DNA from: Rudaea sp. 3F27F6
GTDB taxonomy: Bacteria; Pseudomonadota; Gammaproteobacteria; Xanthomonadales; Rhodanobacteraceae
NCBI RefSeq assembly: GCF_005503555.1
Contig: NZ_SCNG01000001.1
Location: 992,001 to 1,056,000 of the forward strand
DNA length: 64,000 bases
Direction: 5' to 3'
In this document: piece by piece, positions 6,508 through 62,489 of the stretch
Position numbering within the stretch: the stretch's first letter is position 1
How the letters are laid out: each line of letters starts with the position of its first letter
Notes under the pieces: generated by a model
What the model was told of the DNA's origin: nothing
The model's input: only the letters and a program-made list of their open reading frames with translations
The model's database searches: none
Program-made: the position numbers and the translations under genes

Positions 6508-6508
6508 C

Positions 6509-32257: not shown

Positions 32258-33520
32258 TTACTGGCAGGCGAGGCTGTTGATGCTGCCGAGGCGCTTCCAG
32301 ATCTTGCCGGTGCCGGTGCCGCCCGGACCGCCGGTCACGGTCGGGGTCGCACCGCTATAGTCGAACTTGATCGTATTGCAGTCGGTGAACTGCACGTTCA
32401 TCGTGCCCCAGTTGTTGCGCGTGGTTTTGGTGAAGTTGCCCGCGAACCCGCCGCCGGTCGCGTAATAAACCGGAACGTTCAGCAACTGCGTGGTGCCGAT
32501 CGGGAAATCGGTCTGTATAGCGAGCCAGAACGGAATGCCATTCTGGTCGTACGTGTACCACGAGGCAAAGAAGGTGCGCGTCGTTGCGGTACTATCGAAC
32601 ACTTGAGTCAACAGGCCCTCGCCACCGTGCGTCGGGTCGTACCATGAACCGGTCAGATAGCCGTTGATCGGCATCGGCAGGAACGCAGCCGGATAGGTCT
32701 GCTGATTCGGCGCGTAGGCACCGATGTTGAAGATCTTGCGGCCGTTCTGATAGCCGTTGTCGAAGCGGATCTGGAAGCTCTGATTGAAATCGAAGAAACC
32801 GAAACTCGGATTCGCATAGTTCTCGAGCACATAGGTGGTGCTGTTGATGATCGGCGCACCGACCAGCATGTCGGACAGCACCGTATTCGGCTCGACCGCC
32901 GTACGCACGAAATCGGTTAGGTTCTTGTTGTCGAACTGAATGCCGTTCTGCGAGATGCGAATGTCTGGATACTGCGGGTAGAGCTGGTTGTCGCCTTCAT
33001 ACGCAGCCTGGCGCTGGATGCGCACCAGCGTGGCGCTGGCCGGGAATCCGTCCGTGTTGTAAGGCAGCTTGTCGCCGCTGCTGCTGCAAGCGACGCGGAA
33101 GACCGTGATCGTCACGTCTTCGGCACTGTCCGTGTTGTTCGGACCGCGCTCATACAGCGTCACCGTGCCGCTATAGAGCACGCCGCTCGGCGAAACCGGC
33201 AGCGGCTGGATCGCGTTCGACGGATTCGGCAGGAAGTCGGAGAAGCAGCTCGCCGGATAAGCGCGATAGCTGTTCGCCACGAGTTCATTCGGACTCACGG
33301 TGGCGGCCGCGGAAGCGGCAGACGCAGCAGAACTGTTGCTCGTGGCCACCGGCGCCTTGCGCGATCCCGCAAGCAGCGCGGCGCGCTGGGCCTGCACGGC
33401 GCCAGTATCGCTGCGTCCGCCCGCTGGAACCGCTCCACGATCTGCGGCGAAAGCCTGTGAGGTGAGTGCACACGCGAGTATCGCGGCGCCGGCAAAGACG
33501 CGGTTCGATAAAGAAGACAT
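32258..33520 (-). CDS. Secreted protein of unknown function with one C-terminal GSWY-type domain
   Basis: The protein has 420 residues with a signal peptide (ending SQAFA/AD), an Ala/Ser-rich linker (about residues 26-75) and a beta-rich middle region with NGYQNGRKIFNIGAY. A C-terminal domain at 286-420 starts NGYLTGSWYDPTHGGEG. It continues with FFASWYTYDQNG, a Gly-rich GGGFAGNF, then TMNVQFTDCNTIKFDY, and ends with a Cys. That domain is the most divergent of five related copies in this window. The protein is probably exported, with no anchor seen. The gene stands alone, leftward, divergent from tatD. Function unknown. Confidence 0.85.
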   Translation of the reverse strand: MSSLSNRVFAGAAILACALTSQAFAADRGAVPAGGRSDTGAVQAQRAALLAGSRKAPVATSNSSAASAASAAATVSPNELVANSYRAYPASCFSDFLPNPSNAIQPLPVSPSGVLYSGTVTLYERGPNNTDSAEDVTITVFRVACSSSGDKLPYNTDGFPASATLVRIQRQAAYEGDNQLYPQYPDIRISQNGIQFDNKNLTDFVRTAVEPNTVLSDMLVGAPIINSTTYVLENYANPSFGFFDFNQSFQIRFDNGYQNGRKIFNIGAYAPNQQTYPAAFLPMPINGYLTGSWYDPTHGGEGLLTQVFDSTATTRTFFASWYTYDQNGIPFWLAIQTDFPIGTTQLLNVPVYYATGGGFAGNFTKTTRNNWGTMNVQFTDCNTIKFDYSGATPTVTGGPGGTGTGKIWKRLGSINSLACQ

Positions 33521-33659
33521 GATTGGAACTCCTGCGGGGAACGGGTGGTCCGGATTGTAGGCACAACCTTGACGCGTCGCGGTTAACGCGCGGTGAATGT
33601 CATGCCGCTCTGCGATAATGTCGACGAACTCACTGATTACGAAGTCTTAACGCATCCGC

Positions 33660-34448
33660 ATGCAATTGGTCGACATCGGCGCAAACCTTACCCACGAATC
33701 CTTCCGCCATGATTTCGATGCCGTGCTCGCGCGCGCACAGGCGCACGGCGTCGCCCAGTTCGTCGTCACCGGCGCAAGTGCGCAGGGCACGCGCGACGCG
33801 TATGCGCTCGCGCTGACGCGTCCCGGCGCGCTCTACGCGACCGCCGGCGTGCATCCGCACCATGCCAGCGATTTCGACGCGGAGACGGAAGACCTCCTGC
33901 GCGAGTACCACGCCAAACCCGAAGTCGTCGCCGTCGGCGAAACCGGACTCGACTATCACCGCAACTTCTCGCCGCGCGATGCGCAACTGTTCGCCTTCGA
34001 GAAGCAGCTCGAACTCGCGGCGGCCTGCGGCAAGCCGCTGTTCCTGCATCAGCGCGATGCGCATGCGGACTTCCTCGCCTGCATGGACAACGTGCGCGGC
34101 CGCATCGGCGCCGCCGTCGTGCACTGCTTCACCGGCGAAAAAAACGAACTGTTCGATTATCTCGACCGCGATTTCCATATCGGCATCACCGGCTGGATCT
34201 GCGACGAGCGCCGCGGCGCGCATCTGCGCGAATTCGTCAAGGACATACCTGCCGATCGCCTTATGCTCGAAACCGACGCGCCGTATCTGTTGCCGCGCAC
34301 GGTGCGGCCGATGCCTTCGCACCGGCGCAACGAGCCGATGTATCTCGCGCACATTTGCGAGGAAGTCGCGCGCGACCGCAGCGAGGACGTGGCCGTTACT
34401 GCCGCCAACGCGACGGCGACCGCGCGGCAGTTCTTCGGTTTGGATTGA
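33660..34448 (+). CDS. tatD: TatD family metal-dependent hydrolase
   Basis: The protein has 262 residues. The N-terminus MQLVDIGANLTHESF is of the TatD-proper type, which lacks the usual HxH. Then come GVHPHHAS, VGETGLDYHRN (conserved Glu), LFLHQRDAH, VVHCFTGE and ETDAPYLLPR (catalytic Asp). It is a cytoplasmic TIM-barrel enzyme. Family members act as 3'-5' DNA/RNA exonucleases in oxidative damage repair. It is monocistronic, with mprF 131 bp downstream on the same strand. Confidence 0.95.
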   Translation: MQLVDIGANLTHESFRHDFDAVLARAQAHGVAQFVVTGASAQGTRDAYALALTRPGALYATAGVHPHHASDFDAETEDLLREYHAKPEVVAVGETGLDYHRNFSPRDAQLFAFEKQLELAAACGKPLFLHQRDAHADFLACMDNVRGRIGAAVVHCFTGEKNELFDYLDRDFHIGITGWICDERRGAHLREFVKDIPADRLMLETDAPYLLPRTVRPMPSHRRNEPMYLAHICEEVARDRSEDVAVTAANATATARQFFGLD

Positions 34449-34579
34449 ATGCCCGGATCGGGCGGCCCGCCGCTCGTGCTGTACCGCAAGAAACGCCCGC
34501 CGGACCTGTTCATCGGCGTCATTTCCTTATCCCGACGGCGAGCCTGCGATAATGCGCGCCGCGCCCGCACATTTCGACC

Positions 34580-37207
34580 ATGACCGAAACCGCCGACACC
34601 CCGCACCACACCCAGCCGCCGAGCCTCGTCGCACGCCTGCGCTGGCTCGTGCCCGTGGTGTTTCTCGCGGTGACCGGCTGGCTGCTCTGGCGCGAACTCG
34701 GCCATCAGTTCGACCTGCCCGAAATCCAGCGCACCCTGCTCGACGTGCCGACCGTGCCCGCACTCGGCATGGCCCTGCTCGCCCTGTTTGCCGTCGCTTT
34801 CACCGGACTCGTCGACAGCCTGATCGGACATTGGCTCGGGCTCGGCCTGCATTGGCGCGACTATCTGCGCCTGTCCTTCGTCGCCAATGCGTTGGCCAAT
34901 ACCTTGAACCTGTCCGGCGCGATGGGCGCAGGCATCCGCCTGATGGGGCTGACTTCGCATAAGGTCCATCTGCCGCGCGCGGCCGCGCTGATCGGCATGC
35001 AGGCGCTGTCGTTGCCGCTCGGCCTGTCCCTGCTCGTTGTGCTGACCCTGGCGACGCGTTCGCTGCCGCTGACCGAGGGCACGACCGAGCGCACGATCGC
35101 CTACCTCGTGCTCGCTGCGGCCGCGCTGTATCTGCCGTTGTATTTTTTCCTGACCACAAAGCGGCGCCTGATGCGCTGGCTGCCGCACGATCTCGGCCTG
35201 CCGCCGCTGCGCCTGAAAATCGAACTTACCGTCGTCTCGCTGATCGACTGGGTGCTCGCCGCCGCGGTCCTCTGGGCCTGCCTGTACATCTCGGGCGCAC
35301 ACGTGAAGCCCGGCCTGCTGCTCGGCGCGTTCGCCGGAGCTTCGGTGCTCGGCCTCGCGAGCCAGGTGCCCGGCGGCATCGGCGTATTCGACGGCCTGAT
35401 CCTGATCGCGCTCAAGGAGGCCGGCTACGACCCGCCGGTGATCGTCTCGGGCCTGCTTCTGTTCCGTATCGCGTACTACTTGCTGCCCTTGCTCGCCGGG
35501 CTCTACGTCGGCTCGGAGATGTTCACCCAGAATTCGCAGTTGATCGCGCGCCTGCGCACTCGGCTCGGCAGCCATCCGCTGTTCGGCCTGCTCGGCCTGC
35601 CGGCCGTGCTGCTCGCCGATCTCGGTACGCGCCTCGTCGCCGTGCTGACCTTCCTCGCCGGTGCCCTGCTGCTCGCCTCGGCGGCGATGCCGTCGGTGAT
35701 CGAGCATATCAACGATGTGCGCGCGCATCTGCCGATCCTGTTCGTCGAAACATCGAGCTGGTTTTCGGTATTGACCGGCGTGCTGCTGCTCGGCCTCGCG
35801 CGCGGAATCGACGGGCGCCTGCGCGTCGCCTACCGCGTGACGATGTGGCTGCTCCTGATCAGCGCGGGCCTTGCGGTGGCGAAGGGCCTGCATTTCGGCG
35901 AAGCCCTGTTTCTGCTTGCGGTCGCTTTATTGCTGCGCGTGCGCAAGCGCGCTTTCACCCGGCGCGCGATGACCTTGAGCGCGATGACGTCGGCGGGCTG
36001 GTACGCCGGACTTGCGGTCTGCGTCCTCGTCTTCTTCGCGATCGGCGCGGCGCAGGTGCTCGGCGACGATTCGTTCGACTTGTTCTACTTCGGCTTCGGC
36101 GAACACACCTCACGCATCGGTCGCGGCCTCGCCGCGGCCGCGCTCGGTCTCGTCGTTTACCTGATCTGGCAGTTTTTCGCCGTGCGCCGGCCGGAACTGT
36201 CGCTGCCGAACCGCGGTGATCTCGAACACGCGCGCACGATCTACAACGAACACGGCGGCGGCGAGTTCGCCCACCTGACCTTCATGCGCGACAAGCACCT
36301 GTTCTGGGCCGCCGACCGCCATGCCGTGGTCGCCTACGGCAGCGTGCGCAACCGTCTCGTCGCGCTGGGTTCGCCGTGCGGGCCGGAAGCGGTGATCGAC
36401 CAGGCCATCCTCGAATTCCGCCGCCATGCCGACGCGCAGGATCGCGTACCAATCTTCTACGAAGTGCTCGAACCCGATCTCTCGCATTACCACGACGCCG
36501 GCTTCGATCTGTTCAAGCTCGGCGAACTGGCGATCGTGAAGCTCGACGAATTCTCGCTCGCCGGCAAACGCTGGGAAGACCTGCGCCAGGCGGTCAACCG
36601 TTCGACCAAGGAGCAGCTCACGTTCGAGATCGTCGATGCACCGCACGACTCGGCTCTGATCGCCGAAGTGCGCGAAGTCTCGGACATCTGGCTCGCCGAC
36701 AAGGGCTCGGTCGAAAAAGGTTATTCGCTCGGCCGCTTCGACGGCGATTATCTCGACTGGAGCCCGCTCGCCCTCGTGCGCCGCTCTGGCAAACTGATCG
36801 CATTCGCCAACATCCTGCCGCCGTACGGCCCGAACGGCACCGCGAGCGTCGATCTGATGCGCCACGTCAGCGATGCTCCGCGCAGCACGATGGATTTCCT
36901 CTTCGCCAAAGTCATGCTCTGGGCGCAGGCGCAGGGGCACAAGCAGTTCAGTCTCGGCATGGCGCCGCTCTCGCGCGTCGGCGACAACCCGTATGCGCGC
37001 ATCAACGAACGCCTCGCTTCGCTTGCCTTCCGCTACGGCAACAACCTATACAACTACCAGGGCGTGCGCCGTTACAAGGACAAGTTCAAGCCGGAATGGA
37101 CCGGCTCGTATCTCGCCTATCCGCGCGGCATCTGGGTTCCGGGCTTGCTGATCGACATCGCCGCGCTCGTCGCCGGCGGCTACGGCCGCTTCCTGCTCGG
37201 CCGTTAG
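34580..37207 (+). CDS. mprF: Bifunctional lysylphosphatidylglycerol flippase/synthetase MprF
   Basis: The protein has 875 residues. The N-terminal 520 or so residues contain about 13-14 membrane helices with the flippase core (LSFVANALANTLNLSGAMGAGIRL, GLASQVPGGIGVFDGLIL). The cytoplasmic C-terminal domain (about 540-860) is the aminoacyl-phosphatidylglycerol synthase (DUF2156) with FLFAKVMLWAQAQGHKQFSLG and the terminal GVRRYKDKFKPEW. MprF transfers lysine (or alanine) from tRNA to phosphatidylglycerol and flips it outward, lowering surface charge and sensitivity to cationic peptides. Which amino acid is used cannot be read from the sequence. Confidence 0.95.
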   Translation: MTETADTPHHTQPPSLVARLRWLVPVVFLAVTGWLLWRELGHQFDLPEIQRTLLDVPTVPALGMALLALFAVAFTGLVDSLIGHWLGLGLHWRDYLRLSFVANALANTLNLSGAMGAGIRLMGLTSHKVHLPRAAALIGMQALSLPLGLSLLVVLTLATRSLPLTEGTTERTIAYLVLAAAALYLPLYFFLTTKRRLMRWLPHDLGLPPLRLKIELTVVSLIDWVLAAAVLWACLYISGAHVKPGLLLGAFAGASVLGLASQVPGGIGVFDGLILIALKEAGYDPPVIVSGLLLFRIAYYLLPLLAGLYVGSEMFTQNSQLIARLRTRLGSHPLFGLLGLPAVLLADLGTRLVAVLTFLAGALLLASAAMPSVIEHINDVRAHLPILFVETSSWFSVLTGVLLLGLARGIDGRLRVAYRVTMWLLLISAGLAVAKGLHFGEALFLLAVALLLRVRKRAFTRRAMTLSAMTSAGWYAGLAVCVLVFFAIGAAQVLGDDSFDLFYFGFGEHTSRIGRGLAAAALGLVVYLIWQFFAVRRPELSLPNRGDLEHARTIYNEHGGGEFAHLTFMRDKHLFWAADRHAVVAYGSVRNRLVALGSPCGPEAVIDQAILEFRRHADAQDRVPIFYEVLEPDLSHYHDAGFDLFKLGELAIVKLDEFSLAGKRWEDLRQAVNRSTKEQLTFEIVDAPHDSALIAEVREVSDIWLADKGSVEKGYSLGRFDGDYLDWSPLALVRRSGKLIAFANILPPYGPNGTASVDLMRHVSDAPRSTMDFLFAKVMLWAQAQGHKQFSLGMAPLSRVGDNPYARINERLASLAFRYGNNLYNYQGVRRYKDKFKPEWTGSYLAYPRGIWVPGLLIDIAALVAGGYGRFLLGR

Positions 37208-37223
37208 CCGGCGACCACCCAGG

Positions 37224-39365
37224 TTAGTGCCAGGCGTTGACCAAGTTGGCGACGTTGACCGTGCCGATGCCCGTGGCGAAGTCCCAGCCGGTCTGCGCCT
37301 TGAACGCGGGCGAGTTGGTCACACTCGATGTCGACAGTACGCCGTAGTAGAAGCTCGACGTCGTGCCAGTGTAGCCGTAGCAGTCGAAGCCGAAGCAATT
37401 GACCGTGATGTCGCCCTGGGTCACGTCGTAGAAGATGCAGCCGCTGCCGACCGTATTGCCGTTGCTCGAATTGCAACTCGCGCTGCCACCGCTGCCGTAT
37501 TCGCTCGCGGCAAGTCGGTAATAGGTGTAGTTCGGATTGCCCTGCGCCGTGCCGGTCTTCTGATTGATCAGCGCCTGCACGCCGGCGAGGATCGGCGCGG
37601 AAATCGACGTGCCACCGAGCAGCGTCCAGTTGTCGGGCGTGCCGGTGCACGGATTGCCGCCGTTGGCGACGTCGCTGTAGCACTCGACATAGGCGTGGCC
37701 CCAGAACCCATTCGAGGCGAACATCGATACGTCGGGAAGGTCGCGCACGCCGTCGCTCGGCAGGCCGAACACACCGGCCTGCCAAGCCGGTTTCGCCACG
37801 CCCTGGCAGCTTCCGAGCCCTGAGATCAGGCCGTTGCTGCCAGTGGTCGGAGCGCCCGACGCGCAGTTGCTCGGGCCGCCGCTGCCGGCGCCTGTCGTGT
37901 TCATCGCGTACTGCAAGGCAAGGATGGTGCTGCAGAAGCCGGTCGAACCGTAGGCGATGCTCTCGCTCAGAAAGCCCAGGATCATCGAGCCCGCACAGGA
38001 ATCGTTCCACGGAATTTCCGGGATGTAGGAAAGCGCCGCGCCGTTGCTGCCCCAATACGTCGACGTGGTCTTCGCGTACTCATCGGAGAAATCCGTGCCG
38101 CCGACCGCGACGTTGTACGCCGTCGAGGCGAAGCCGTTGACGGCGATGCCGTTGTAGGCGCCGTTCTGGCCGCCGTCGCAACTCGCCGCGCCGTCGTCGC
38201 CCGATGACACGAACACGGACACGCCTTCGGCCACGGCTTGCTGATACGCCGCCGCATACGCCGCATTGCCGGCCGTGCCGAGCGCGGCCTCGCACTCGCC
38301 GTAGCTCATGCTGATGATCGGCGGCGGTACGCTCGCCTCGATCAGGTTCTGCACGGCGATAAGGCCGCCGAACAGGGTGCTCGTGTCGGCGCACGCAGCG
38401 ACCACGATCTTCGCGCCCGGCGCGGCGGCGCTGGCCCATTCCGCATCGACTTCGGCTTCGATCGCGGTGCCGCTGATGCCGGGATCGGCACAGTTGTTCG
38501 CCCCGTTTTTCGGCGCCGGGTGGACTTGCACGAGGCTCGCCGTGGTGTAGCCGGCAAGACCGAGCTTGCTGCGGAACGTAGTCCAGTCCTGCGCGCTGTA
38601 GACGTCGGTGTCCTCGACCACAACGATCGTCTGACCCTGCCCGGTATTGCCCGCGGCGAAGACCGGATTGAAGTTGTAGATCGTCGCCAGGTCAGCCGGC
38701 GCGAGATTGGTGCCGCCGCCGGACGCAGCGTCCTGCGGCAGGAACTTCGCCTTCTGCGCACGCTTCGCCATTGCATGCGGGCGGAAATCGTTGAGCGACA
38801 CAACGCCTTTGACCACGGACGCGAGCGCGGCCGGAATCTGCGGATCGCTCATGTTGGCGAAATGCCGCGCGCCCTTGACCGCGAGCCGGTGGATCTCGGT
38901 GCGGAACGCGTCGTGCACCGCGCCGGCGCTGCCGGAGAAGTCGATCGTCAGCGCATTGGCGTAGACGCGATTGACCGTGAAGCCGTGCGCGGTCAGCCAG
39001 CCGGTGACCGCCGCGACGTCGGCCTGGGCGACGCCGTACTGTGCACCGAACTGTTCCGCGCTGAGCCAATGATGGAACGTCGGCGACGCCGGATCGTGCA
39101 GCGCGTCGATCGCGCTCGCGAGCGCGCGCTCCTGTTCGGGCGAGCGGCGCAGCAGCAGCTGCATGTGATCGAGCGGCATCGTATCGGCGACGGCGCCGAG
39201 ATCGTTCGCCGCCGTGGCCTCGGGCCGTACGTTGCCGGCCAGAGTCACGCGCGCGGCGTCGTCGACTTTCGCGGCGACGCGCGCGACCGGCTGGACCGCT
39301 GCGGCCTGCGCCGCGCAGGCGAATCCGAGCAGGCCCAGCATCGTCCATCCGGTTCGCTTGATCAT
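37224..39365 (-). CDS. S53 family serine-carboxyl peptidase (sedolisin/pseudomonalisin type)
   Basis: From the ATG at 39365 the protein has 713 residues with a signal peptide (MIKRTGWTMLGLLGFACAAQA). A pro-kumamolisin-type activation domain (about 25-205) precedes the catalytic domain. Catalytic residues are present: Glu303 and Asp307 (EAEVD), Asp390 (SSGDDGA) and Ser587 (GGTSISAP). The calcium-binding end GWDFATGIGTVNVANL is also present. It would act as a secreted acid protease. An alternative ATG at 39428 overlaps the stop of the LRR gene (ATGA), so the two secreted-protein genes may be translationally coupled. It ends 16 bp from mprF, tail to tail. Confidence 0.93.
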   Translation of the reverse strand: MIKRTGWTMLGLLGFACAAQAAAVQPVARVAAKVDDAARVTLAGNVRPEATAANDLGAVADTMPLDHMQLLLRRSPEQERALASAIDALHDPASPTFHHWLSAEQFGAQYGVAQADVAAVTGWLTAHGFTVNRVYANALTIDFSGSAGAVHDAFRTEIHRLAVKGARHFANMSDPQIPAALASVVKGVVSLNDFRPHAMAKRAQKAKFLPQDAASGGGTNLAPADLATIYNFNPVFAAGNTGQGQTIVVVEDTDVYSAQDWTTFRSKLGLAGYTTASLVQVHPAPKNGANNCADPGISGTAIEAEVDAEWASAAAPGAKIVVAACADTSTLFGGLIAVQNLIEASVPPPIISMSYGECEAALGTAGNAAYAAAYQQAVAEGVSVFVSSGDDGAASCDGGQNGAYNGIAVNGFASTAYNVAVGGTDFSDEYAKTTSTYWGSNGAALSYIPEIPWNDSCAGSMILGFLSESIAYGSTGFCSTILALQYAMNTTGAGSGGPSNCASGAPTTGSNGLISGLGSCQGVAKPAWQAGVFGLPSDGVRDLPDVSMFASNGFWGHAYVECYSDVANGGNPCTGTPDNWTLLGGTSISAPILAGVQALINQKTGTAQGNPNYTYYRLAASEYGSGGSASCNSSNGNTVGSGCIFYDVTQGDITVNCFGFDCYGYTGTTSSFYYGVLSTSSVTNSPAFKAQTGWDFATGIGTVNVANLVNAWH

Positions 39366-39424
39366 GGTCTGCGCCTTGCGATGAGAGTCTGCGCACCGAT
39401 GCGATGCGGCGAGGAATAGGGTTT

Positions 39425-41353
39425 TCATAGAGTGCACCCCGCCGGTTGCGGGCCGAGCCGGACGAGCTGGATCGTGCCGCTGGCCGACTGCGAATTGAGC
39501 GAGTTCGGCGAGATCGTGTAAGTCAACGTGGCCGCGATGCAGCTTTGGAAGGTGAGACTGACCGACCCGACCGTTGCCCGGTTTACACCGCCGCCGACGG
39601 CGAAGCTGCCGCCATTGGCCTGGAGCAGCGGCATATTGCTCATCGAGGTCGCATTCGGCGCGAAGCTGTTGCTCTGGAACGAGAACCACTGCTGCCGCGG
39701 CGACGGCGCGGAATAGCCCGTGGGGAAGAACGTGTACCAAGCGCCAAAGAGGGTCGTGATGCCGGGGCTGACGTCGAAGTAGAAACCCTGCCCGCTCTGG
39801 TTCTGGTCGTACCAGGCCCCGGAAAGAAGATAGTTCGCCGGCGCGTTACCGTTGTCGCCGCTGGCGCCGCAGGTCGTGTTTGCAGTCAGACGCGTCAGCG
39901 GGATCGAACCGGCGCGGCCGTCGTTGAATGCGTAGACCAGGGTGGCGGTCGAGCAGTCGCTGAAGCTCAGCGTCGCCGTGCCCACCTGGCTGCGATTCGG
40001 GCTCGGGCCGGCCTGCAGATTGCCATCCGTCGCCGTGAAAATACCGAGCGAGGCCGACGAACTGTTGCTGTAGACGTCGCCTTGCAGCGCATACCAGCGC
40101 TGTGCGCCGCTGCCGGCGGAGTCGAACGTGTACCAGCCCGCAGCGAGCGTGCCGTGTCCGGCGCCAACGTTGTCGGCGTAGAGATTGATCAGGAAACCCT
40201 GACCGCTCATTTGCGAATTCCACCAGGTGCCGCTCAGGCCATGCTGGTCGAGATTGATCGTGGTTGCGCTGAGGCCGCAGGCGCTGTACCACGGAGTGAC
40301 GCCGGTCGCCGCGTCCCAGTTGGCGTCGGGCGTTGCGCTGAATGCGTTGCCGCAGAGCACCGACGCACCGGCCTGTAGATTGTTCGGGTTCGGCACCACC
40401 GCCACATTGCCGCTCAGTTGATTGCCGCCGACGTCGATGCCGGTCAGCGCGGCGAGGCCGTTCAACGACGGCATCGTGCCGTTGATCTGGTTCGCATGCA
40501 CGTTGAACGTGGCGAGATTGGCTAGCCCAGTCAGTGCGGGAATCGAGCCGCTCAGCCGGTTGTTGCTCGCATTGAAGAATTGCAGAGCGCTGAGACCGCC
40601 CAGGGAGGGAATCGCGCCGCTGAGCTGGTTGGAGAACACATAGAACGCCTGTAGGCTGCTCAAACCGGTCAAGGCCGGGATCGAACCGCTCAGCGCGTTG
40701 TTGTCGACGTCGAAAACGACCAGATTGGTCAATCCGCTCAGCGACGGCAAGTTGCCCGAGAGGCCGTTCTTTGCCGCGTTGAAACTCTGCAGGCTGATCA
40801 GGCCGGCGAGGCTCGGTATCGAACCGGACAGCCGGTTGCCGCCGACGTCGAAGCCCTGCAGTTGATTCAGGCCGCTCAGCGAGGGAATCGCACCGGTGAA
40901 CTGATCGCCTTCGATGCTGAAACCGCGCAAGGCCGCGAGGCCGCCCAGCGGTGGGATCGCGCCACCGAGACCGCAGTTGGTGTCGCTGCTGCTCGAACAA
41001 TAGTTGTTGTCGGAGACGATGAAGGTCTGCAGATACGTCAGCGCGGACAGATCCGGCAGAGTGCCGATGAGGCCGTTCTGCGCCAAATTGATGCTGACGA
41101 CGTGATTGCCGCCGGCGTCGCAGTCCACGCCGAACCATGCCGGCGTGGTGCTGCTGCCGCACTCGCTGCCGGCCGCGCCGTTGCCGCCGTTGCCGTTGCT
41201 CCAGCCGCCATTGTGGACCCAGCCCGAGCCGCCGGTGCTGGTGTAGAAATTCAGCAGCGCCTGGCGCTCGGACGCCGGAATCGCCGCCTGCGCGGAAGCG
41301 ATCCACAACGCCGCGCACGGTAGCGCGCAAAGCCATTTCGAGTGGAGCCTCAT
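39425..41353 (-). CDS. Secreted plant-type leucine-rich repeat protein with two GSWY-type domains
   Basis: From the ATG at 41353 (GAGGAAA upstream) the protein has 642 residues. A signal peptide ends ASAQA/AI. An LRR N-cap-like region follows (SERQALLNFYTSTGGSGW then WFGVDCD), as in plant LRR proteins. About nine LRRs of mostly 23 residues (95-323, consensus LSGxIPxLxGLxxLxxFxxxxNx) come next. Two copies of the GSWY-type domain (367-506 and 507-642) end the protein, each with conserved Trp/Tyr and Cys. There is no membrane anchor. It is probably exported and binds a ligand through the LRR face. The operon continues into an S53 protease. Function unknown. Confidence 0.88.
   Translation of the reverse strand: MRLHSKWLCALPCAALWIASAQAAIPASERQALLNFYTSTGGSGWVHNGGWSNGNGGNGAAGSECGSSTTPAWFGVDCDAGGNHVVSINLAQNGLIGTLPDLSALTYLQTFIVSDNNYCSSSSDTNCGLGGAIPPLGGLAALRGFSIEGDQFTGAIPSLSGLNQLQGFDVGGNRLSGSIPSLAGLISLQSFNAAKNGLSGNLPSLSGLTNLVVFDVDNNALSGSIPALTGLSSLQAFYVFSNQLSGAIPSLGGLSALQFFNASNNRLSGSIPALTGLANLATFNVHANQINGTMPSLNGLAALTGIDVGGNQLSGNVAVVPNPNNLQAGASVLCGNAFSATPDANWDAATGVTPWYSACGLSATTINLDQHGLSGTWWNSQMSGQGFLINLYADNVGAGHGTLAAGWYTFDSAGSGAQRWYALQGDVYSNSSSASLGIFTATDGNLQAGPSPNRSQVGTATLSFSDCSTATLVYAFNDGRAGSIPLTRLTANTTCGASGDNGNAPANYLLSGAWYDQNQSGQGFYFDVSPGITTLFGAWYTFFPTGYSAPSPRQQWFSFQSNSFAPNATSMSNMPLLQANGGSFAVGGGVNRATVGSVSLTFQSCIAATLTYTISPNSLNSQSASGTIQLVRLGPQPAGCTL
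39428..40255 (-). repeat. Two copies of the GSWY-type domain in the LRR protein
   Basis: Copy 1 (residues 367-506) begins NLDQHGLSGTWWNSQMSGQG. Copy 2 (507-642) begins NYLLSGAWYDQNQSGQGF. Both go on with AGWYTF or GAWYTF, a QRWYALQG or QQWFSFQS strand, a TLSFSDC or SLTFQSC strand and a final Arg-Leu-Cys segment. They are homologous to the domains at 59247-60065 and, more distantly, to the end of the 32258-33520 protein. Confidence 0.8.
40385..41071 (-). repeat. Leucine-rich repeat coding array
   Basis: It encodes residues 95-323 with LRR units such as LSGSIPSLAGLISLQSF, LSGNLPSLSGLTNLVVF and LSGAIPSLGGLSALQFF, most spaced exactly 23 residues (69 bp). One early unit carries an insertion with two Cys (YCSSSSDTNCG). 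The (L/I)xGxIP motif is the plant-type LRR class. Confidence 0.88.
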
Positions 41354-41605
41354 CAGATTTCCTCGGCGCGGCGGATATACGCGCAAAGGTATCCTTCGGC
41401 GGTTAAGGCGATCCAAATTCCGCGCGCAAAAAGCATGGAGACGCCGGCACCAGGCGTCGAACATGAACCGAAACGCTACTGCCGGCCGCAGAAGACCGCC
41501 CGCGGATGCGGCAGTGCATCATTTCGCGTATGCTGCGCTCCCTTTTTTCGGCGGCACGGGCCGCCCCCGCGCGCCGCGGGCAGCTACACGCACAGGAGCA
41601 AATTC

Positions 41606-42154: not shown

Positions 42155-42160
42155 TTGTCC

Positions 42161-42187
42161 GCGGGGCGGCCTGACCGGCTGCCCCGC
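42161..42187 (+). terminator. Probable terminator hairpin of ppa
   Basis: GCGGGGCGGCC and GGCTGCCCCGC pair over 11 positions (one G-U) around a 5-base loop, and GACGTTTCTTCC follows. It lies 6 bp after the ppa stop and before the convergent glycosyltransferase gene. Confidence 0.6.
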
Positions 42188-42215
42188 GACGTTTCTTCCG
42201 GTCGGCTGCCGAACG

Positions 42216-50581: not shown

Positions 50582-50587
50582 GTTTCG

Positions 50588-51229: not shown

Positions 51230-51266
51230 GACATCAACATCGCTAGGTACTCACTGAAGAATGTTT

Positions 51267-52588: not shown

Positions 52589-52601
52589 AGGAGCGCGCGC
52601 C

Positions 52602-53063: not shown

Positions 53064-53064
53064 A

Positions 53065-56500: not shown

Positions 56501-56705
56501 GATGATCCCGCTGTCGCGCAGTGCGTTCTACGGGCCGATGGCCGTCGCGATCATGGGCGGCCTGCTCGTCGCGACCGCGCTGACCCTGCTTTTCCTGCCC
56601 GCGCTGTACGCCGCGTGGTTCCGCGTGCAACGCGACGAGCCCGAGACGCATCGTAGTACCGAGGCGGATGTGCCGGGAACGGCCGCCGTCGCCGGCAGTC
56701 ATTGA
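53520..56705 (+). CDS. RND family efflux permease (AcrB-like)
   Basis: The protein has 1061 residues from the ATG that overlaps the DUF4260 stop. It has twelve membrane helices in two halves with large periplasmic loops after TM1 and TM7. The proton-relay Asp pair appears in LGLLVDDAIIAVEM in TM4, where LxDDAI is the family hallmark. The N-terminal WSLRNQPLLRYFIVLFAALGVWSY and the porter segment WPGATAAEVTEQVTEKIEKKL are conserved. A His/Asp-rich loop lies near residue 520. It is a proton-driven exporter of drugs or other hydrophobic compounds. The substrate is not predictable. Confidence 0.96.
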   Translation: MTGFNLSEWSLRNQPLLRYFIVLFAALGVWSYMGLGQSEDPPFTFKVMVVQTQWPGATAAEVTEQVTEKIEKKLQELPQVDYLRSYSRPGESMVFVVIKDSLPAGDVPDFFYQVRKKIGDIRYTLPQGILGPFYNDEFGDTFGNIYALTGEGYSDAQLRDYAERLKLELLRVPDVAKVQFLGLQDEKVTIELSNAKLATLGVSFNQLQQTLAAQNAITPAGSFETGADRIYLRPTGAFDSVEAIRNISIRANGNLFRLGDIANVTRGYADPPNPRMRFMGKNSLGIAVSMRAGGDIIHLGKNLDETTARLQQNLPVGLELERVTDQPRAVARSVDEFVHTLAEAVIIVLLVSFFSLGLRTGLVVALSIPLVLAMTFAAMKYFGIDLHKISLGALVLALGLLVDDAIIAVEMMAIKIEQGYDRIRAAAFAYTSTAFPMLSGTLVTAAGFLPIATAKSGTGEYTRSIFEVVTIALLISWVAAVMLIPYLGYKLLPERDQAPPPAGSWLMRLPPRLRRIVTGEHAPHADHDPYATPFYKTFRSLVDWCVGHRWLVIGATVGAFVLSIAGFGLVQQQFFPDSTRPELIVDLKLTEGASLNATEAQVKKLEAWLAKRPELENYVSFVGSGAPRFYLPLDQQLPQASFAEFVLLTRSLADREKLRADLIELFDKDFSELRARVVRLENGPPVGYPVQFRISGADVATVRELSRKVAGVMRKNPILRNVNLDWEEPSKVVKLDIDQERARVLGVSSQDLANFLQSSLSGVPITYYRERDQLIEVDLRGPGDERARLSLLESLAVPTPSGKAVPLKQIANVSYGFEEGIIWRRNRLPTVTVRGDIYGTTTAPTVTAQVLPQLDEIKASMPQGYLLQVGGAVEESAKGQTSVNAGMPLFLIVVLTVLMIQLRSFSRVLLVFLTAPLGLIGVTLFLLVFHVPFGFVAMLGTIALMGMIMRNSVILVDQIEQDIAAGHERWTAVVDATVRRFRPIVLTALAAILAMIPLSRSAFYGPMAVAIMGGLLVATALTLLFLPALYAAWFRVQRDEPETHRSTEADVPGTAAVAGSH

Positions 56706-56730
56706 ATTCCGGTCGTCGCGCCCAACCGTA

Positions 56731-56782
56731 TTGACGCGGCCGTTACCGATCAGTAACATCTCGCCCGTTACTGATCGGTAAC
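56731..56782 (+). promoter_or_regulatory. Promoter-like site overlapped by a pair of mirror-image 16-bp operators
   Basis: GTTACCGATCAGTAAC (56742-56757) and GTTACTGATCGGTAAC (56767-56782) are exact reverse complements, each itself a near-palindrome, separated by 9 bp. A TTGACG (-35, 56731-56736) and a TAACAT (-10, 56754-56759) with 17-bp spacing overlap the first copy. This looks like two half-overlapping TetR-type operators on a promoter that would drive pcm-tolC. The pair can also fold as a 16-bp RNA hairpin. Confidence 0.5.
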
Positions 56783-56802
56783 ATCGCAACGGGTGGGCGG
56801 CG

Positions 56803-56889
56803 TCAACTCGACGTCAGCGGCGATGCGCGATGATCCAGGAAGGTTTGAATGACTTCCGGCACTTCGGCCGCCGGAGGACGATACGGCAT
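56803..56889 (-). other. Short minus-strand frame with protein-like sequence (possible gene remnant)
   Basis: A 28-codon frame from the ATG at 56889 reads MPYRPPAAEVPEVIQTFLDH and eight more residues to a stop. The PPAAEVPEVI stretch faintly recalls the linker segment that precedes the core of Fic-family proteins (a 'PPP-x-x-VP-x-LM' pattern). No ribosome binding site is seen. It is either a degraded gene end or coincidence. Confidence 0.2.
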
Positions 56890-56896
56890 CGTACGA

Positions 56897-56925
56897 TTGC
56901 CGGCGTAAACCCCACACTTTATGCT
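56897..56925 (+). promoter_or_regulatory. Possible pcm promoter
   Basis: A TTGCCG and a TATGCT separated by 17 bp lie 33 bp upstream of the pcm ATG, a normal leader length. It is an alternative to the operator-covered promoter at 56731. Confidence 0.4.
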
Positions 56926-56957
56926 TTGATTCTTTTCAAGAAAGCCGGAAACCAGCC

Positions 56958-57608
56958 ATGTCGCTCAACGTCGAACTCGCCCGCAACAACATGATCGAAC
57001 AACAAGTGCGTCCGTGGGACGTGCTCGATGAGCGCGTGCTCGAGGCGCTCAGCGCGATCCCGCGCGAGGATTTCGTGCCCGAAGCGACGAAAAATCTGGC
57101 TTTCGCCGATCTCGAGCTGCCGCTTGGCCACGGCGAAATCATGCTCAAACCCGTCGTCGAGGGCCGGCTGCTGCAAACCGCGCTGCCCTTGAAAAGCGAG
57201 AGCGTGCTCGAAATCGGCACCGGATCGGGCTTTCTCACCGCCTGCCTTGCGCGCCTCAGCGCCGAGGTCGTCAGCATCGAGCAGCACGCCGATTTCGTCG
57301 AAGCGGCGCGCAGCCGCCTCGCCGCTGCCGGCGTGCGCAACGCCAAGATCGAATGCGCCGAGGCGGTCAACCAATACCAGCCCGGACGCCAGTTCGACGT
57401 GATGATTGTCACTGGCGCGGTCGCCGTCCTTCCGCCACGCTGGCGCGAATGGGTCAAGCCGGGTGGGCGTCTGCTCGTTATCGTCGGCGAATCGCCGGTG
57501 CAGCGCGCGACGCTGTACGCGGGCGGCAGCGGCGAAGGCACACCTTTGTTCGAAACCGATCTGCCCTATCTCGCCCACGCGGCGCCGGCCGCACGCTTCG
57601 CGCTCTGA
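56958..57608 (+). CDS. Protein-L-isoaspartate O-methyltransferase family protein
   Basis: The protein has 216 residues, soluble. The SAM-binding motif I is VLEIGTGSGFLTACLA (about residues 84-99), followed by VVSIEQHADFVEAA. The N-terminal ARNNMIEQQVRPWDVLD is typical of the subgroup found upstream of tolC. It may repair isoaspartyl residues or methylate another substrate. The canonical substrate-recognition residues of Pcm could not be checked by eye. It lies 45 bp before tolC on the same strand. Confidence 0.9.
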   Translation: MSLNVELARNNMIEQQVRPWDVLDERVLEALSAIPREDFVPEATKNLAFADLELPLGHGEIMLKPVVEGRLLQTALPLKSESVLEIGTGSGFLTACLARLSAEVVSIEQHADFVEAARSRLAAAGVRNAKIECAEAVNQYQPGRQFDVMIVTGAVAVLPPRWREWVKPGGRLLVIVGESPVQRATLYAGGSGEGTPLFETDLPYLAHAAPAARFAL

Positions 57609-57653
57609 GCGCGGACGGCGGCCCACAACGAAAAATTCCCAAGGAAATGCACA

Positions 57654-59066
57654 ATGCGCAAAAGTAAAGAAGTCAAAAATGCCGCATCCGGCCGGATCAA
57701 GCTCGGTGCGCTTACCGCCGCCGTCGCGATCGCCACGCTGACCTCGCCGCTGCGCGCGGAAGACCTGAGCCAGATATACATGGACGCGCGCCAAGCCGAT
57801 CCGACGCTCGCCGGCGCCGATGCGAACCGCCTCGCGACCAAGGAAGGCTCGCCGATCGCGCGTGCGCCGTTGCTGCCGCAGATCAACGGCAGCTACGGCT
57901 ACAACCGCAACAACAGCAACGTCAGCCCGATCACCGACAACAACGGACAGACGACGCCCGGTGAGCAGATCACCCGCGCTCGCTCGCGTCCCGCGTCGGT
58001 GACCCTGACCCAGTCGATCTTCAACTGGGGCAACATCGAGCGCTTCCGCAGTGCGAACGCCCTGTCCGAAGGCGCGGATTTCACTTACGATGCCGCTTCG
58101 CAGGACCTGCTCGTACGTACAGCGACCGCCTACTTCGCCGTGCTCACCGCCGAAGATCAGCTCACCTTCTCGCAGCTCAACGAAAAGTCGCTGCAGAAAC
58201 AGCTCGACCAGGCCGACGAACGCTTCAAGGTCGGTTTGTCCGCGATCACCGACGTGCACGTGGCGCGCGCGCAGCATGACGCCGCCGTAGCCCAGGTGAT
58301 CACCGCGCAGAACTCGGTCGAGACCGCACGCGAAGGCGTCGTGCAGATCATCGGTAAGAATTTCGGCGAGCTGAAGAAGCTGCGCGACCCGATTCCGCTC
58401 GAGAAGCCGGCGCCTTCCGACATGCAGGCCTGGGTCGACCTGGCCGGCAAGCAGAACCCGACCCTCGCCTCGGCGCAGAAAACGGTCGACTCCTCGGAGC
58501 ACCTCATTTCGGCGAACCGCGCGGGCCACTATCCGACGCTCGGTGCGACGGTGACGCGCTCCGACACGCCTTCGTGGGGTAGCCAGGGCTATGACATTCC
58601 GGGCCAGCCCGGCAGCTCGCTTCGCAGCAACGGACTGACCGGCAACACGACGATCGGCGTCACGCTGAACATTCCGATCTTCAGCGGCGGCCTCGTCACC
58701 TCGCAAACGCGCCAGGCCATCTATCAGCGCGACGCGGCGCAGGATCAGCTCGAACTGACCCGGCGCACGGTCAACGCCAACACACGCAATGCCTACCGTG
58801 CCGTTATCGCGGGCATCAGCGAAGTCGAAGCGGCCAAGGCTGCGGTCGTCTCGGCGCAGAGCGCGGTCGATGCGACCCAGGCCGGTTTCGAAGTCGGCAC
58901 CAAGACCATCCTCGACGTGCTGACTAGCCAGAGCACCCTGCTGCAGGCACAAAGCTCGTACTCGCAAGCGCGCCACCAGTTCGTGCTCAGTGGTCTGCAG
59001 CTCAAGCAAGCCGCCGGCGTGATGGCGTCCAAGGATCTCGACTCGGTCAACGCGCTGTTGCAATAA
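57654..59066 (+). CDS. tolC: TolC family outer-membrane channel
   Basis: The protein has 470 residues with a signal peptide ending PLRA/ED. Two homologous halves each start with a beta-strand/helix pattern: LSQIYMDARQADPTLAGADA in the first, and the repeat around MQAWVDLAGKQNPTLASAQK. Long coiled-coil helices (DQLTFSQLNEKSLQKQLDQADERFKVGLS) and FEVGTKTILDVLTSQSTLLQAQ at the end are TolC hallmarks. It forms a trimeric exit duct for efflux pumps and type I secretion, and is a plausible partner for the RND pump upstream. AAGGAA precedes the ATG, and a strong terminator follows. Confidence 0.96.
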   Translation: MRKSKEVKNAASGRIKLGALTAAVAIATLTSPLRAEDLSQIYMDARQADPTLAGADANRLATKEGSPIARAPLLPQINGSYGYNRNNSNVSPITDNNGQTTPGEQITRARSRPASVTLTQSIFNWGNIERFRSANALSEGADFTYDAASQDLLVRTATAYFAVLTAEDQLTFSQLNEKSLQKQLDQADERFKVGLSAITDVHVARAQHDAAVAQVITAQNSVETAREGVVQIIGKNFGELKKLRDPIPLEKPAPSDMQAWVDLAGKQNPTLASAQKTVDSSEHLISANRAGHYPTLGATVTRSDTPSWGSQGYDIPGQPGSSLRSNGLTGNTTIGVTLNIPIFSGGLVTSQTRQAIYQRDAAQDQLELTRRTVNANTRNAYRAVIAGISEVEAAKAAVVSAQSAVDATQAGFEVGTKTILDVLTSQSTLLQAQSSYSQARHQFVLSGLQLKQAAGVMASKDLDSVNALLQ

Positions 59067-59114
59067 GAAGGCTGTGGGCACGATTTAGTGCGCCAATCTT
59101 TCGCTATTTGAATG

Positions 59115-59150
59115 TAGGGGCGCGAGAAATCGCGCCCCTATTTCGTTTTT
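59115..59150 (+). terminator. Rho-independent terminator of tolC
   Basis: An 11-bp perfect stem TAGGGGCGCGA / TCGCGCCCCTA with a GAAA tetraloop is followed by TTTCGTTTTT. It lies 48 bp after the tolC stop. Confidence 0.93.
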
Positions 59151-59243
59151 AGCTCGACATAACGCTCGTCGCACGCCTTCTTTTTAGCTCCGAAAGGAAC
59201 GGCCGCGCGGCCACAAGATGCCGCTGCAATATCAGCACGGCCG

Positions 59244-62200
59244 CTACTGCAGACTGCAACTTGCCGCGACGGGGCCGGTCGGCTGCAGCGTCATGCTTCC
59301 GCGCCGGCCATCGTCGAATGCGTAATTTATCGTCATCAAAAAGCAGTTCTGGAATGTGACCTGAGCCGTACCGAGCACCTGAGACGCTACCGGGTGCGCC
59401 ATGTTGAATGCACCGCCCGTCGCCGTGAGAATTTGCACCGTAGCCGTCTTCTGCCCCGGCGTAAGCGGTCCCTGCAAACTGTACCAGCGCTGGCCGCCCG
59501 TGCCGTCGGCAGCATACGTATACCAGCCCGCGAAAAACTGCTGATTGATCGGATTGACGTCGACCATCAGACCTTGTCCGCTCGTCTCGCGGTTGTACCA
59601 AAATCCGGAAAGCAGATTGTTCGATGCCGCGGAGCCGTCATCACCGACTGCAGCGCAGGTCACGTTCGCTGTCAGCCGCGTCAATGGCACTGTGCCGATA
59701 CGACCGTCGTCCAAGGCATAGCTCAATACACCGTGTTCGCAATCGCGTAGCGCAAGCGTGCCGTGGCCGACTTGCACTGCGGGCACCTTGGGCGGGGAAT
59801 CAAAGCGACCACCCGTGCCGGCATAGATTTTCACATCGGCGGAGGGGCTGACCGGATCGACTTCGCCGTCGAGGTAGTACCAGCGCTGCCCGCTCGCATC
59901 GCCCACCGTATTGCCGGATGTATCGGCCGGCGCAAACGTATACCAAGAGCCGGCAAGCAGGCCGTTGCCGGCGCTATTCATATCCGGATAAACCTGGAAA
60001 GAGAAGCCCTGTCCGCTGGTTTGCGGGTTGTACCAGGTGCCGGTGATGCCGCGCTGATCGAGATTCACCGGCGTATACCCGTTGTTGAGGTAGGCGTAAC
60101 CCAGATTGTCTCCGGCGGATTGTCCGGTGTAGCCCTGGCTCTGCATATCCGCGAGCAGCGAGTCGGGGAAAATCGCATAGTCGCCGCGCGTCGCGTTGTA
60201 TCTGCGCAGCAGCTTAACCGTACCCACGGGCTGCACATCGGCCGCAGAGTACAGATAGCCCTCAATACCATCGAGCAGATAACCCGCTGCAATCAAAGCC
60301 TGCATGCTCTGCACGTCGGTCGCATAAGCCACGTCCATGTGCTGAGGGGTGCTTTTGCAAACGTCCGGCATCGGCGACGCCGATTGCCCGCAGCGCCAGG
60401 ACAAGCGATACAGCGGCACCAACGGATCGGCAGGGTTCTTCGGATTGTCCGGTGTGGTGAACACCCACACCTGCGCGGCGGGTTGCGCGCCGGCGACGCC
60501 GGGTATTGCGTAGTCGTCCGGAAGGCCTGTCCCGACCGGGACGTACTTGATGCTGTCATAGCTGCTTACGTTGTCTTCGCACGCGCTTACCTCGCTCTGG
60601 ATGTCCGCACCAGGCGGTGGATTGCACGCGTTGTTGGGCTGCAGGGTCCCCCTGAGCGCAGCCCCGCCCATCTGCGGCACGATCGTATAGAAATGATCGA
60701 GACGCCCGTTGCTGTAGTACGAATAAAGTGGGGTCAAGCGATGGCCGGCTATCTTCATGATTGCCCCTGCGGCACGCGCCGCGTCCACCAAGCCACAACC
60801 TACCTCATCAGTGCAATTCGGAAAGTTACTACCGCTGGCGCGGATCACATCGCGCACCTTCGCTTCGGCGTAGGTGGGATGAATCGAACGCAGAATGCCG
60901 CCCAAGGCGGCGATAAACGGTGTGGACATCGAGGTTCCGGTGCAACTGGCATAGCCGTCGCCGGGCACGCCCGATTCGTCGCCGAGATAGGTTATGCCGT
61001 CCAAGCCCACGGTCGGCCCCGAGTCCGTGCAACTGCCTACGGCTCCCGGCGTGGCCGGGGGCGAGTAATAATTCACACCCGGCGGAAATGTGGACACGAT
61101 GTGCTGCGCGGGCGCCATGACGCCGTTAACCCCAGGATGGTTGGTTCCGGGCTGATACAGATTCACGAGGTGCTGGTCCCACGGCTGCCAGCCCGCCGCT
61201 GGATCGTCTGCTTGCCGTATCTGCGCCCCACCTACGGCAAGCACCCGCGTGTCGGCGGCCGGGTATTCGGCTGCGGGTTTCATGTAGTTGCCGGCGGCGG
61301 CAACCAGGAGCACGCCTCGAGCGTTGGCCATGGCAACAGCATCAGCCATGCTTGAATATTGGGCCGGGTCATCAAAAGCAGTGCCGAAACTCATGCTCAC
61401 GACCTGTACGCCTCGATTCACGAGACCTCGGAGCGCTGCGGCGAAATAACTATCCGAATTGCCCGCCTGGATCATGGCAAGACCGCAATTCGGGCATGCT
61501 CCGGCCACGCCGATCCGGTTGTTCACCGTCGCAGCGATGATGCCCGCCGTGTGCGTGTCATGCGCTTGGATCACCGAAGGACGACAACCGGATAAGCAAC
61601 GCGAGAACTGTTTGCGATAGTTCGCCGCCAAGTCGGCAGGCGGCGCGGGCGTAGTCAGAACCACGGGATTCCCCGAATCATCGACATCGCTGTAGTCCAC
61701 CGACCACGACACCGATCCGACAATGCCGACGTAGGCCGAACCGGGATAGATGCCCCAAGCAGCAGGAAAATTCATCGCCTGCAGCCCCCATTGGTAAGTG
61801 GCCTCTTTGCCAGGCTGATAATGGGGATTGGCGGCGATGTTGTTCGCAAAGTATTCGTCGTTCGGAGTCGAGGAAAATTTCAGCACGTGATTCATGCTGA
61901 CCGCGTCTCTGCCCAAGATCACCTGCAACTGTTGTTGCGCAGCCCGCGCGTGGGCGATATCCGGATATTGCAGCACGACGCGACGCAACAGGCGCTCTTC
62001 GGGATCGTCTTTGCGCAGGCGCGCGCGCGAATGGTGATCCAAACGCTCGCTACCGATCAGGTAGCGTGCGCTGTCGGGAAACGAAAAACGGCTGAGCGCA
62101 TAGGCATCGCGTGCTCCAATCGCGTCTACGATCGCGTCTTCTCCACGCACAGCGGCAGAGAGGGCGCTGGCATTTCCTTTCGGCAGCAACGTGCGCAACG

Positions 62201-62489
62201 CCTCGCTTTCACCGTCCACTAATACGATCAATTCGTTGCTGTCGCCCGCAGCATCAGAAAGAAAGCCCAACTCCTCGGGAACACGCAGTGGAGGATGCCA
62301 GGCGGATCGCAGCGAATCTGCGCGCTGGACTGAAGATGCACCGACCGACGACGGCGCGTACGTGAACCCCATTGTTGCGATTACCGTGACGCCGACCCAG
62401 AACAAATGTCGGATCCATGTTGCCGGCCCAACCGGAGCTGCGGAGGAAACGTGCTTTGCGACTAGCGCAGGAAGAATCCGTGACGTCAT
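59244..62489 (-). CDS. Secreted S8 (subtilisin-like) peptidase with altered triad and two GSWY-type domains
   Basis: From the ATG at 62489 (GGGGGAAAG upstream) the protein has 1081 residues. The N-terminal export signal is unusually long (hydrophobic WIRHLFWVGVTVIATMGFTY at about 25-44), and a propeptide-like region runs to about 225. The S8 domain (about 235-620) keeps His310 (QAHDTHTAG), the oxyanion Asn401 (AAGN) and Ser520 (GTSMSTP). The place of the catalytic Asp reads GIVGSVSWS (Gly258). Residues about 640-805 resemble DUF5648-type repeats (LDHFYT, VPLYRLSW, DGIEGYLY). Two GSWY-type domains follow (809-957 and 958-1081). It is probably extracellular, and its activity is uncertain. It separates tolC from waaA. 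Confidence 0.87.
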   Translation of the reverse strand: MTSRILPALVAKHVSSAAPVGPATWIRHLFWVGVTVIATMGFTYAPSSVGASSVQRADSLRSAWHPPLRVPEELGFLSDAAGDSNELIVLVDGESEALRTLLPKGNASALSAAVRGEDAIVDAIGARDAYALSRFSFPDSARYLIGSERLDHHSRARLRKDDPEERLLRRVVLQYPDIAHARAAQQQLQVILGRDAVSMNHVLKFSSTPNDEYFANNIAANPHYQPGKEATYQWGLQAMNFPAAWGIYPGSAYVGIVGSVSWSVDYSDVDDSGNPVVLTTPAPPADLAANYRKQFSRCLSGCRPSVIQAHDTHTAGIIAATVNNRIGVAGACPNCGLAMIQAGNSDSYFAAALRGLVNRGVQVVSMSFGTAFDDPAQYSSMADAVAMANARGVLLVAAAGNYMKPAAEYPAADTRVLAVGGAQIRQADDPAAGWQPWDQHLVNLYQPGTNHPGVNGVMAPAQHIVSTFPPGVNYYSPPATPGAVGSCTDSGPTVGLDGITYLGDESGVPGDGYASCTGTSMSTPFIAALGGILRSIHPTYAEAKVRDVIRASGSNFPNCTDEVGCGLVDAARAAGAIMKIAGHRLTPLYSYYSNGRLDHFYTIVPQMGGAALRGTLQPNNACNPPPGADIQSEVSACEDNVSSYDSIKYVPVGTGLPDDYAIPGVAGAQPAAQVWVFTTPDNPKNPADPLVPLYRLSWRCGQSASPMPDVCKSTPQHMDVAYATDVQSMQALIAAGYLLDGIEGYLYSAADVQPVGTVKLLRRYNATRGDYAIFPDSLLADMQSQGYTGQSAGDNLGYAYLNNGYTPVNLDQRGITGTWYNPQTSGQGFSFQVYPDMNSAGNGLLAGSWYTFAPADTSGNTVGDASGQRWYYLDGEVDPVSPSADVKIYAGTGGRFDSPPKVPAVQVGHGTLALRDCEHGVLSYALDDGRIGTVPLTRLTANVTCAAVGDDGSAASNNLLSGFWYNRETSGQGLMVDVNPINQQFFAGWYTYAADGTGGQRWYSLQGPLTPGQKTATVQILTATGGAFNMAHPVASQVLGTAQVTFQNCFLMTINYAFDDGRRGSMTLQPTGPVAASCSLQ
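59247..60065 (-). repeat. Two copies of the GSWY-type domain in the S8 protease
   Basis: Copy 1 (residues 809-957) starts NLDQRGITGTWYNPQTSGQG. Copy 2 (958-1081) starts NLLSGFWYNRETSGQG. Shared positions include AGSWYTF or AGWYTY, GQRWYYLDG or GQRWYSLQG, a TLALRDC or QVTFQNC strand, and (A/F)DDGR-x-G. Copy 1 even shares the lead-in NLDQ-x-G and the tail IPLTRLTAN/VPLTRLTAN with copy 1 of the LRR protein. Confidence 0.85.

Follow-up and report, generated by a model that had tools for sequence, protein, structure and literature searches.

A domain family shared by unrelated, apparently exported proteins of Rudaea sp. 3F27F6 and its relatives: a candidate extracellular retention or adhesion module

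Closest described systems

PPC, the tail of the type IX secretion system (T9SS) and MYXO-CTERM are C-terminal modules of secreted bacterial proteins. Another domain common to many unrelated, apparently exported proteins, called the module below, occurs five times in a 64,000-nucleotide stretch of Rudaea sp. 3F27F6 DNA (contig NZ_SCNG01000001.1, positions 992,001 to 1,056,000; hereafter the window). Its hosts there are a protein of unassigned function named after its coordinate, the 32258 protein, a leucine-rich repeat (LRR) protein and an S8 protease. One host found outside the window also has a PPC domain. It differs from the three described tails in that the scanned copies have no Pfam match to such families, and it can also be N-terminal and comes without a membrane tail. 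With a probability of roughly 45%, it is an undescribed portable module for extracellular retention or adhesion.

The predicted fold of the module points to other described systems. According to PMC2954199, a paper on DUF2006, calycins are marked by a short helix that caps the barrel, together with a strand-1 Trp and a Lys or Arg in the final strand. Avidin domains fused to the end of aspartic proteases are known in bacteria, for example in Oleiagrimonas soli (PMC8033661). In the sea urchin, fibropellin, an extracellular protein of several domains, ends in an avidin-like domain of calycin type (PMC10336842). Fibropellin is a single protein family, whereas the module sits on many unrelated bacterial hosts and also forms tandem pairs.

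Five related units in three proteins of the window

All three window hosts lie on the minus strand, have a signal-peptide-like start judged by eye and carry the module at the C-terminus. The 32258 protein (32258-33520, 420 residues), an apparently exported open reading frame with nothing beyond Pfam noise (E 0.34) and zero NCBIfam matches, has one module (residues 289-420; 32261-32656). The LRR protein (39425-41464; LRR_4, E 2.7e-15) ends in a tandem pair, copy 1 (39869-40258) showing the lead-in NLDQ-x-G and a tail Cys, and copy 2 (39428-39826) reaching the C-terminus. The S8 protease (59244-62588; Peptidase_S8, E 2.8e-27) is built alike, with copy 1 (59655-60068) having lead-in and tail Cys, a short linker (59613-59654) joining both modules, and copy 2 (59247-59612) reaching the C-terminus. 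In the own-genome search, whose profile was built from an alignment containing these same copies, E-values are 2.3e-42 for the single module, 1.0e-50 and 5.6e-45 for LRR copies 1 and 2, and 2.4e-49 and 1.1e-51 for S8 copies 1 and 2, the latter being the best match of the genome.

The first-pass annotation of the sequence had proposed that these five segments are one and the same unit. Indeed, in pairwise Smith-Waterman alignments every one of the 10 pairs outscores all 500 shuffles, with Z from 9.0 to 55.8. A hidden Markov model (HMM) profile of any four units recovers the fifth with E-values, scaled to 5000 sequences, from 2.3e-13 (32258 protein, the weakest) to 5.3e-31. The alignment of the five units holds 14 invariant columns. 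The claimed positions stand, and the lack of mutual similarity that the annotation had named as grounds for giving up its claim is not what these comparisons returned.

Two side observations concern these hosts. Ahead of its tandem pair, the S8 protease (residues 748-802) has a DUF5648 match below threshold (22.8 bits, cut-off 25). In a relative (locus L101), two adjacent open frames have ends like that of the 32258 protein, perhaps by local duplication of that gene type.

Comparison with known families

In Pfam and NCBIfam, the window proteins are matched only in their host parts (LRR, Peptidase_S8), and none of the five modules is covered by a model. A scan of three libraries covered 26 of the 31 copies detected in the genome, the five divergent ones in L031, L040 and L042 being left out. 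The best matches are isolated: E 0.04 for one member in Pfam, E 0.00077 for one member in NCBIfam (NF050805) and E 0.0042 for two members in PHROG (phrog_8848, no function given). No family of these libraries fits the module, as the absence of a known name had suggested at first sight. MORN repeats were considered and rejected: the match to a radial spoke head 1 profile reaches just E 0.045 over 35 positions (profile 3-37), and the Pfam scan of the 26 copies gives no MORN. In the open-access literature, searchable by wording and not by meaning, no description of the module was found.

Size, spread and position of the family

The family is much larger than the five copies first seen. A profile of the five units gives 29 matches in the own genome (5.70 Mb, 16 contigs), and an iterated search on open frames raises this to 31 copies in 19 proteins, 26 of them beyond the window's five; such further copies had been suggested as a check on the unit. 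Two copies are present in 12 of the 19 proteins, one in the remaining 7, and never more than two. A scan of genome contigs with pair-type patterns adds 20 loci (L045-L064; 36 domains in 20 proteins), and 20 further regions from 17 relatives, picked around known matches, add 54 domains in 38 proteins.

Whole-genome sampling reached up to the phylum level. In a sample of 60 relatives that includes the own genome, 39 are positive, with 3 to 66 matches per genome, and these 39 comprise all 16 genomes of the own genus; within the family the distribution is patchy. In the order sample, where scoring was limited to 15 candidates per genome, 117 of 298 genomes and 45 of 89 genera match. The class sample yields 2 positives among 276 genomes, namely the own genome and another that lies outside the order, and the phylum sample 2 among 299, both within the order. 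Record titles of the 20 pattern-scan loci read Pseudomonadota, one being named Betaproteobacteria. The module family is largely confined to one bacterial order.

The first-pass annotation placed all copies at C-termini, which is right for the window but not genome-wide. Counting as C-terminal a module within 30 residues of the protein end, 17 of the 19 own-genome hosts qualify, while in the other 2 the module is near the N-terminus, behind a signal-peptide-like start. The 38 host proteins of relatives include 5 with an N-terminal module and 1 with an internal one. Pooling the own-genome hosts, those of L045-L064 and those of relatives (19, 20 and 38, at least one protein being counted twice as L103 = L054), 68 of 77 are C-terminal, 7 N-terminal and 2 otherwise, namely the internal case and L045, which is cut by masked sequence. 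With 68 of 77, the module is not strictly C-terminal as would be expected of a C-terminal sorting tag. Two N-terminal modules, in L092 and L096, are followed by long Asp/Gly/Asn-rich tails.

Hosts appear to be exported. In this check, also proposed at the outset, 16 of 16 hosts outside the window have a hydrophobic stretch behind a start codon, by a crude score applied without a control; the three window hosts were judged by eye. Beyond the start region, the Kyte-Doolittle mean of any 19-residue stretch is at most 1.59 in the 19 own-genome hosts. This agrees with the view that they are exported without anchors, export being apparent from the crude start score.

Hosts of the module

Pfam names hosts of very different kinds: S8, trypsin-like and M28 proteases, amidohydrolase, esterases, NHL, SGL and YncE propellers, LRR and Ig-like proteins, as well as PKD, cupredoxin, sorbosone dehydrogenase and PPC. 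For the relatives, this naming rests on a scan of 20 of the 38 proteins. Among L045-L064, hosts recognized by eye are S53, LRR and reprolysin-like proteins, cyclophilins and one multihaem protein; a cytochrome match in L095 falls short of its cut-off. In several hosts, the part outside the module has no Pfam match. None of the three libraries searched has a model for this domain family, and the other parts of its hosts look like proteases, propellers or nothing known. The idea of one mobile domain common to unrelated, apparently exported proteins without later membrane segments is upheld.

The tandem pair as an ordered and mobile unit

Within 44 pairs, the gap between the HMM matches is mostly 19-21 or 30 residues. 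In a quick tree of 64 domains, from which masked rows and rows shorter than 95 residues were left out, the labels copy 1, copy 2 and single require 6 changes, whereas shuffled labels require 27.4 on average; the tree leaves 36 of its 61 inner branches unresolved and has some very long rows. The tandem pair is thus an old ordered unit. It also moves between hosts as a unit, since on this tree an LRR protein (L056) and a reprolysin-like protease (L059), both from isolate LIN-97 by record title, have sister pairs, the window LRR pair adjoining them.

Copy 1 of the LRR protein and copy 1 of the S8 protease share lead-in and tail, from which shuffling inside one genome had been suspected. The shared lead-in and tail are real and are also found in pairs of other proteins, and movement from host to host is borne out by the tree. 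A recent exchange between both window genes is excluded, because their pairs are just 57% identical in DNA, which favours an old two-domain unit.

An accumulation of pairs was seen in a relative: at locus L102 (G529:C3:193000-212000), five adjacent open frames of 1089-1202 residues all end in a tandem pair.

Conserved residues

The module is about 105-135 residues long. Its steadier features are G-x-W-Y, G-x-G, W-[YF]-T, W, G-x-F, G, C, Y and L-x-R-L, plus the tail Cys. The DGR motif first taken as part of the unit is no hallmark of the family, as its R is present in just 22 of 60 lettered rows. Conserved aromatics occupy model positions W12, Y13, W42, Y43, W55 and Y56.

Signature positions were counted in 118 of the 121 domains, short or masked ones being dropped. 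The strand-1 position is W in 113 and Y in 5 of the 118, and the last-strand position is Arg or Lys in 103 of 112 lettered rows. Of the 118 domains, 111 have the two Cys, the second one being sought over about 22 residues at the end. Among the 7 domains without the first Cys, 5 also lack the second, one of these being a contig-end fragment. Because of this co-conservation, a disulfide probably links the Cys after strand 6 to the tail Cys.

Predicted fold and relation to calycins and avidins

An AlphaFold2 model was built from 38 sequences, the five window modules and 33 of the 36 domains of L045-L064, with LRR copy 1 first. It predicts a three-residue helix (model residues 6-8) followed by eight strands, with a predicted local distance difference test score (pLDDT) of 87.2 and a predicted template modelling score (pTM) of 0.82. 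The fold, whose prediction had been proposed at first, is probably a calycin-like eight-stranded barrel according to this model. Foldseek against the PDB returns 547 matches at E<=10 and zero at E<=0.001, the best being 6czg (E 0.011, TM 0.51/0.58). By hand count, 35 of the 50 matches listed are designed barrels (8), avidin-family proteins (20) or lipocalins (7), among which RBP, japanin and CirpA3 are proteins that we take to be lipocalins. Against viral models, no Foldseek match reaches E 0.001.

For the tandem pair, the model predicts the helix and eight strands twice (pLDDT 79.5, pTM 0.79), the linker of the S8 protease lying between both halves. A known two-barrel arrangement was sought and rejected, since the top match, BFA1, has E 0.0021 but a TM of 0.22, and the matches with a probability near 1 are single barrels.

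At the sequence level, the module usually carries the residues of the calycin signature, the Trp and the Arg or Lys, with a predicted helix before strand 1. In these respects, the helix by prediction and the two residues by position, it resembles lipocalins and other calycins as described in PMC2954199. It differs from them by the absence of any lipocalin Pfam match among 26 module copies and by its probable disulfide to the tail.

Avidins are another family that the module resembles. Its opening GTWYN, reminiscent of streptavidin, had led to this comparison even before modelling. Eight strands, predicted in the module, are common to both, and avidin-family proteins make up 20 of the 50 Foldseek matches listed. 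All nine aligned avidins have W-x-N and, four positions past the N, a Ser, and the usual opening of the module is W-x-[N/D] with a Ser four on; its N position, in contrast, is D in 19 and N in 31 of 64 rows. The avidin comparison set contained 10 sequences from other genomes, one plasmid match not being used. Profile-profile alignment with hhalign scores 12.7, within the range of 60 shuffles (maximum 18.5). The avidin model PF01382 matches neither the own genome nor any of the 26 copies (out of 31) covered by the Pfam scan, and the class sample gave no avidin either. As the profile alignment is no better than with shuffled columns, membership of the avidin family was dropped and only the calycin-like fold was kept. 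Avidin domains, too, sit at protease ends (PMC8033661; probably L074), and the module is distinct by sequence from these bacterial protease-fused domains. L074 itself (G026) is a larger protein with a C-terminal PF01382 domain (E 3.0e-16), perhaps of the published aspartic protease-avidin fusion type.

Proposed function and alternatives

In the proposed mechanism, the host would be exported via Sec and the module would fold after export into a small calycin-like barrel of eight beta-strands, entered via the short helix (NLDQ-x-G in pairs) and locked by the disulfide from the Cys after strand 6 to the tail Cys. Used singly or as a fixed-order tandem pair, it would bind a single common partner on the cell surface or in the matrix around the cell, whereby unrelated exported enzymes and binding proteins would be held at the same address. 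A common extracellular partner is the simplest reading because hosts seem to share export and not substrate, and because the module occurs at either end; as the hosts share no substrate, a common address is favoured over a common substrate. The sea urchin fibropellin provides a precedent for an avidin-like domain in an extracellular assembly (PMC10336842).

A bolder version, doubtful without being far-fetched, makes the module a folded address label, recognized by a single receptor or by the type II machinery, that sends or holds dozens of unrelated proteins per genome at one extracellular place. To our knowledge, no common signal of type II secretion is known, and a portable folded tag would, if this version were true, be a new kind of answer to that question. 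If the module gave an address, a set of exported proteins would be recognizable from their letters alone, placement of exported proteins in these bacteria would be testable with one tag, and the small, probably disulfide-locked barrel would be of use for display work.

Unlikely, but first among the alternatives, is a glycan- or polymer-binding module that tethers secreted enzymes to insoluble substrates in the manner of carbohydrate-binding modules. Many hosts are hydrolases, and the module has the conserved aromatics listed above, which may be exposed. Yet cupredoxin, propeller and (by eye) cyclophilin hosts have no obvious common insoluble substrate, and no Pfam family, carbohydrate-binding or other, rises beyond noise in the 26 copies. 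The predicted calycin-like barrel neither proves nor rules out glycan binding.

It is distinctly unlikely that the module is a folded export signal, read by the type II secretion system while still in the periplasm and so taking its host across the outer membrane. It would suit a probably disulfide-bonded, folded module at either end of apparently exported hosts, and the secretin GspD is above cut-off in 286 of 298 order genomes. But since nearly all genomes of the order have GspD, whether or not they carry the module, co-occurrence cannot discriminate. Moreover, GspD matches are weak in four module-bearing genomes, G426 (99% complete, 6% contaminated; E 1.1e-36) and G393, G416 and G408 (90-94% complete; E 3.7e-52 to 2.7e-58), and an S53 protease of the window, which lacks the module, is presumably exported as well.

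As a separate observation, the module-positive genera g5, g14, g16 and g255 of family f1 have a GspD that scores better (E about 1e-164 to 1e-177) than in most of that family (about 1e-140). This better-scoring GspD is not in the own genus and is present in G466, G476, G513 and G554, for which no module match is listed; ancestry alone may account for it.

Oligomerization, by which barrels of different molecules would pair and cross-link their hosts into a matrix, the tandem pair being a built-in dimer, is more improbable still. The predicted calycin-type fold and the fixed order of the pair are consistent with it, and cross-linking has been proposed for the avidin-like domain of fibropellin (PMC10336842 and a title among its references). 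Single-copy hosts are common, however (7 of 19 in the own genome), the module has no sequence homology to avidins, and any interface is putative. Least probable is a passive end-cap that has no specific partner and shields secreted proteins against proteolysis and unfolding, which the terminal position and the probable disulfide would fit but against which stand the same loop and aromatic residues kept across unrelated hosts and a fixed two-domain order suggesting more than bulk stability.

Several points weigh against extracellular retention or adhesion as the role of the module. The S53 (kumamolisin-type) protease of the window (37224-39740, minus strand; Pro-kuma_activ, E 1.3e-27) is a module-less sibling, whereas similar proteases, compared by eye, carry the module at the end in L046, L049, L051 and L061. 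The query-normalized TM among the 50 Foldseek matches listed is 0.19 to 0.52, and no Foldseek match reaches E 0.001. The calycin Trp-Arg signature is read at the sequence level, stacking and the barrel pocket being putative, and signal peptides were judged by crude criteria. In the order, 181 of 298 genomes have no module match. No ligand, partner or receptor gene was found for the module, which may merely stabilize or oligomerize its hosts, in keeping with the same data.

Plasmid and phage records

The 32258 protein has no match in plasmids. The single-copy module of L037 is absent from the plasmids searched and has no relative in a viral-contig scan; one phage record matches it. In the record of Dolichospermum phage Dfl-JY45 (PP438435.1, 119464-131826; L108), two adjacent genes, at 4874-5848 and 5911-6804 of the locus, have an N-terminal module and are either phage cargo or bacterial DNA within the record. 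Both have signal-peptide-like starts, their modules score E 7.6e-10 and 3.1e-17, and an integrase-like gene is nearby.

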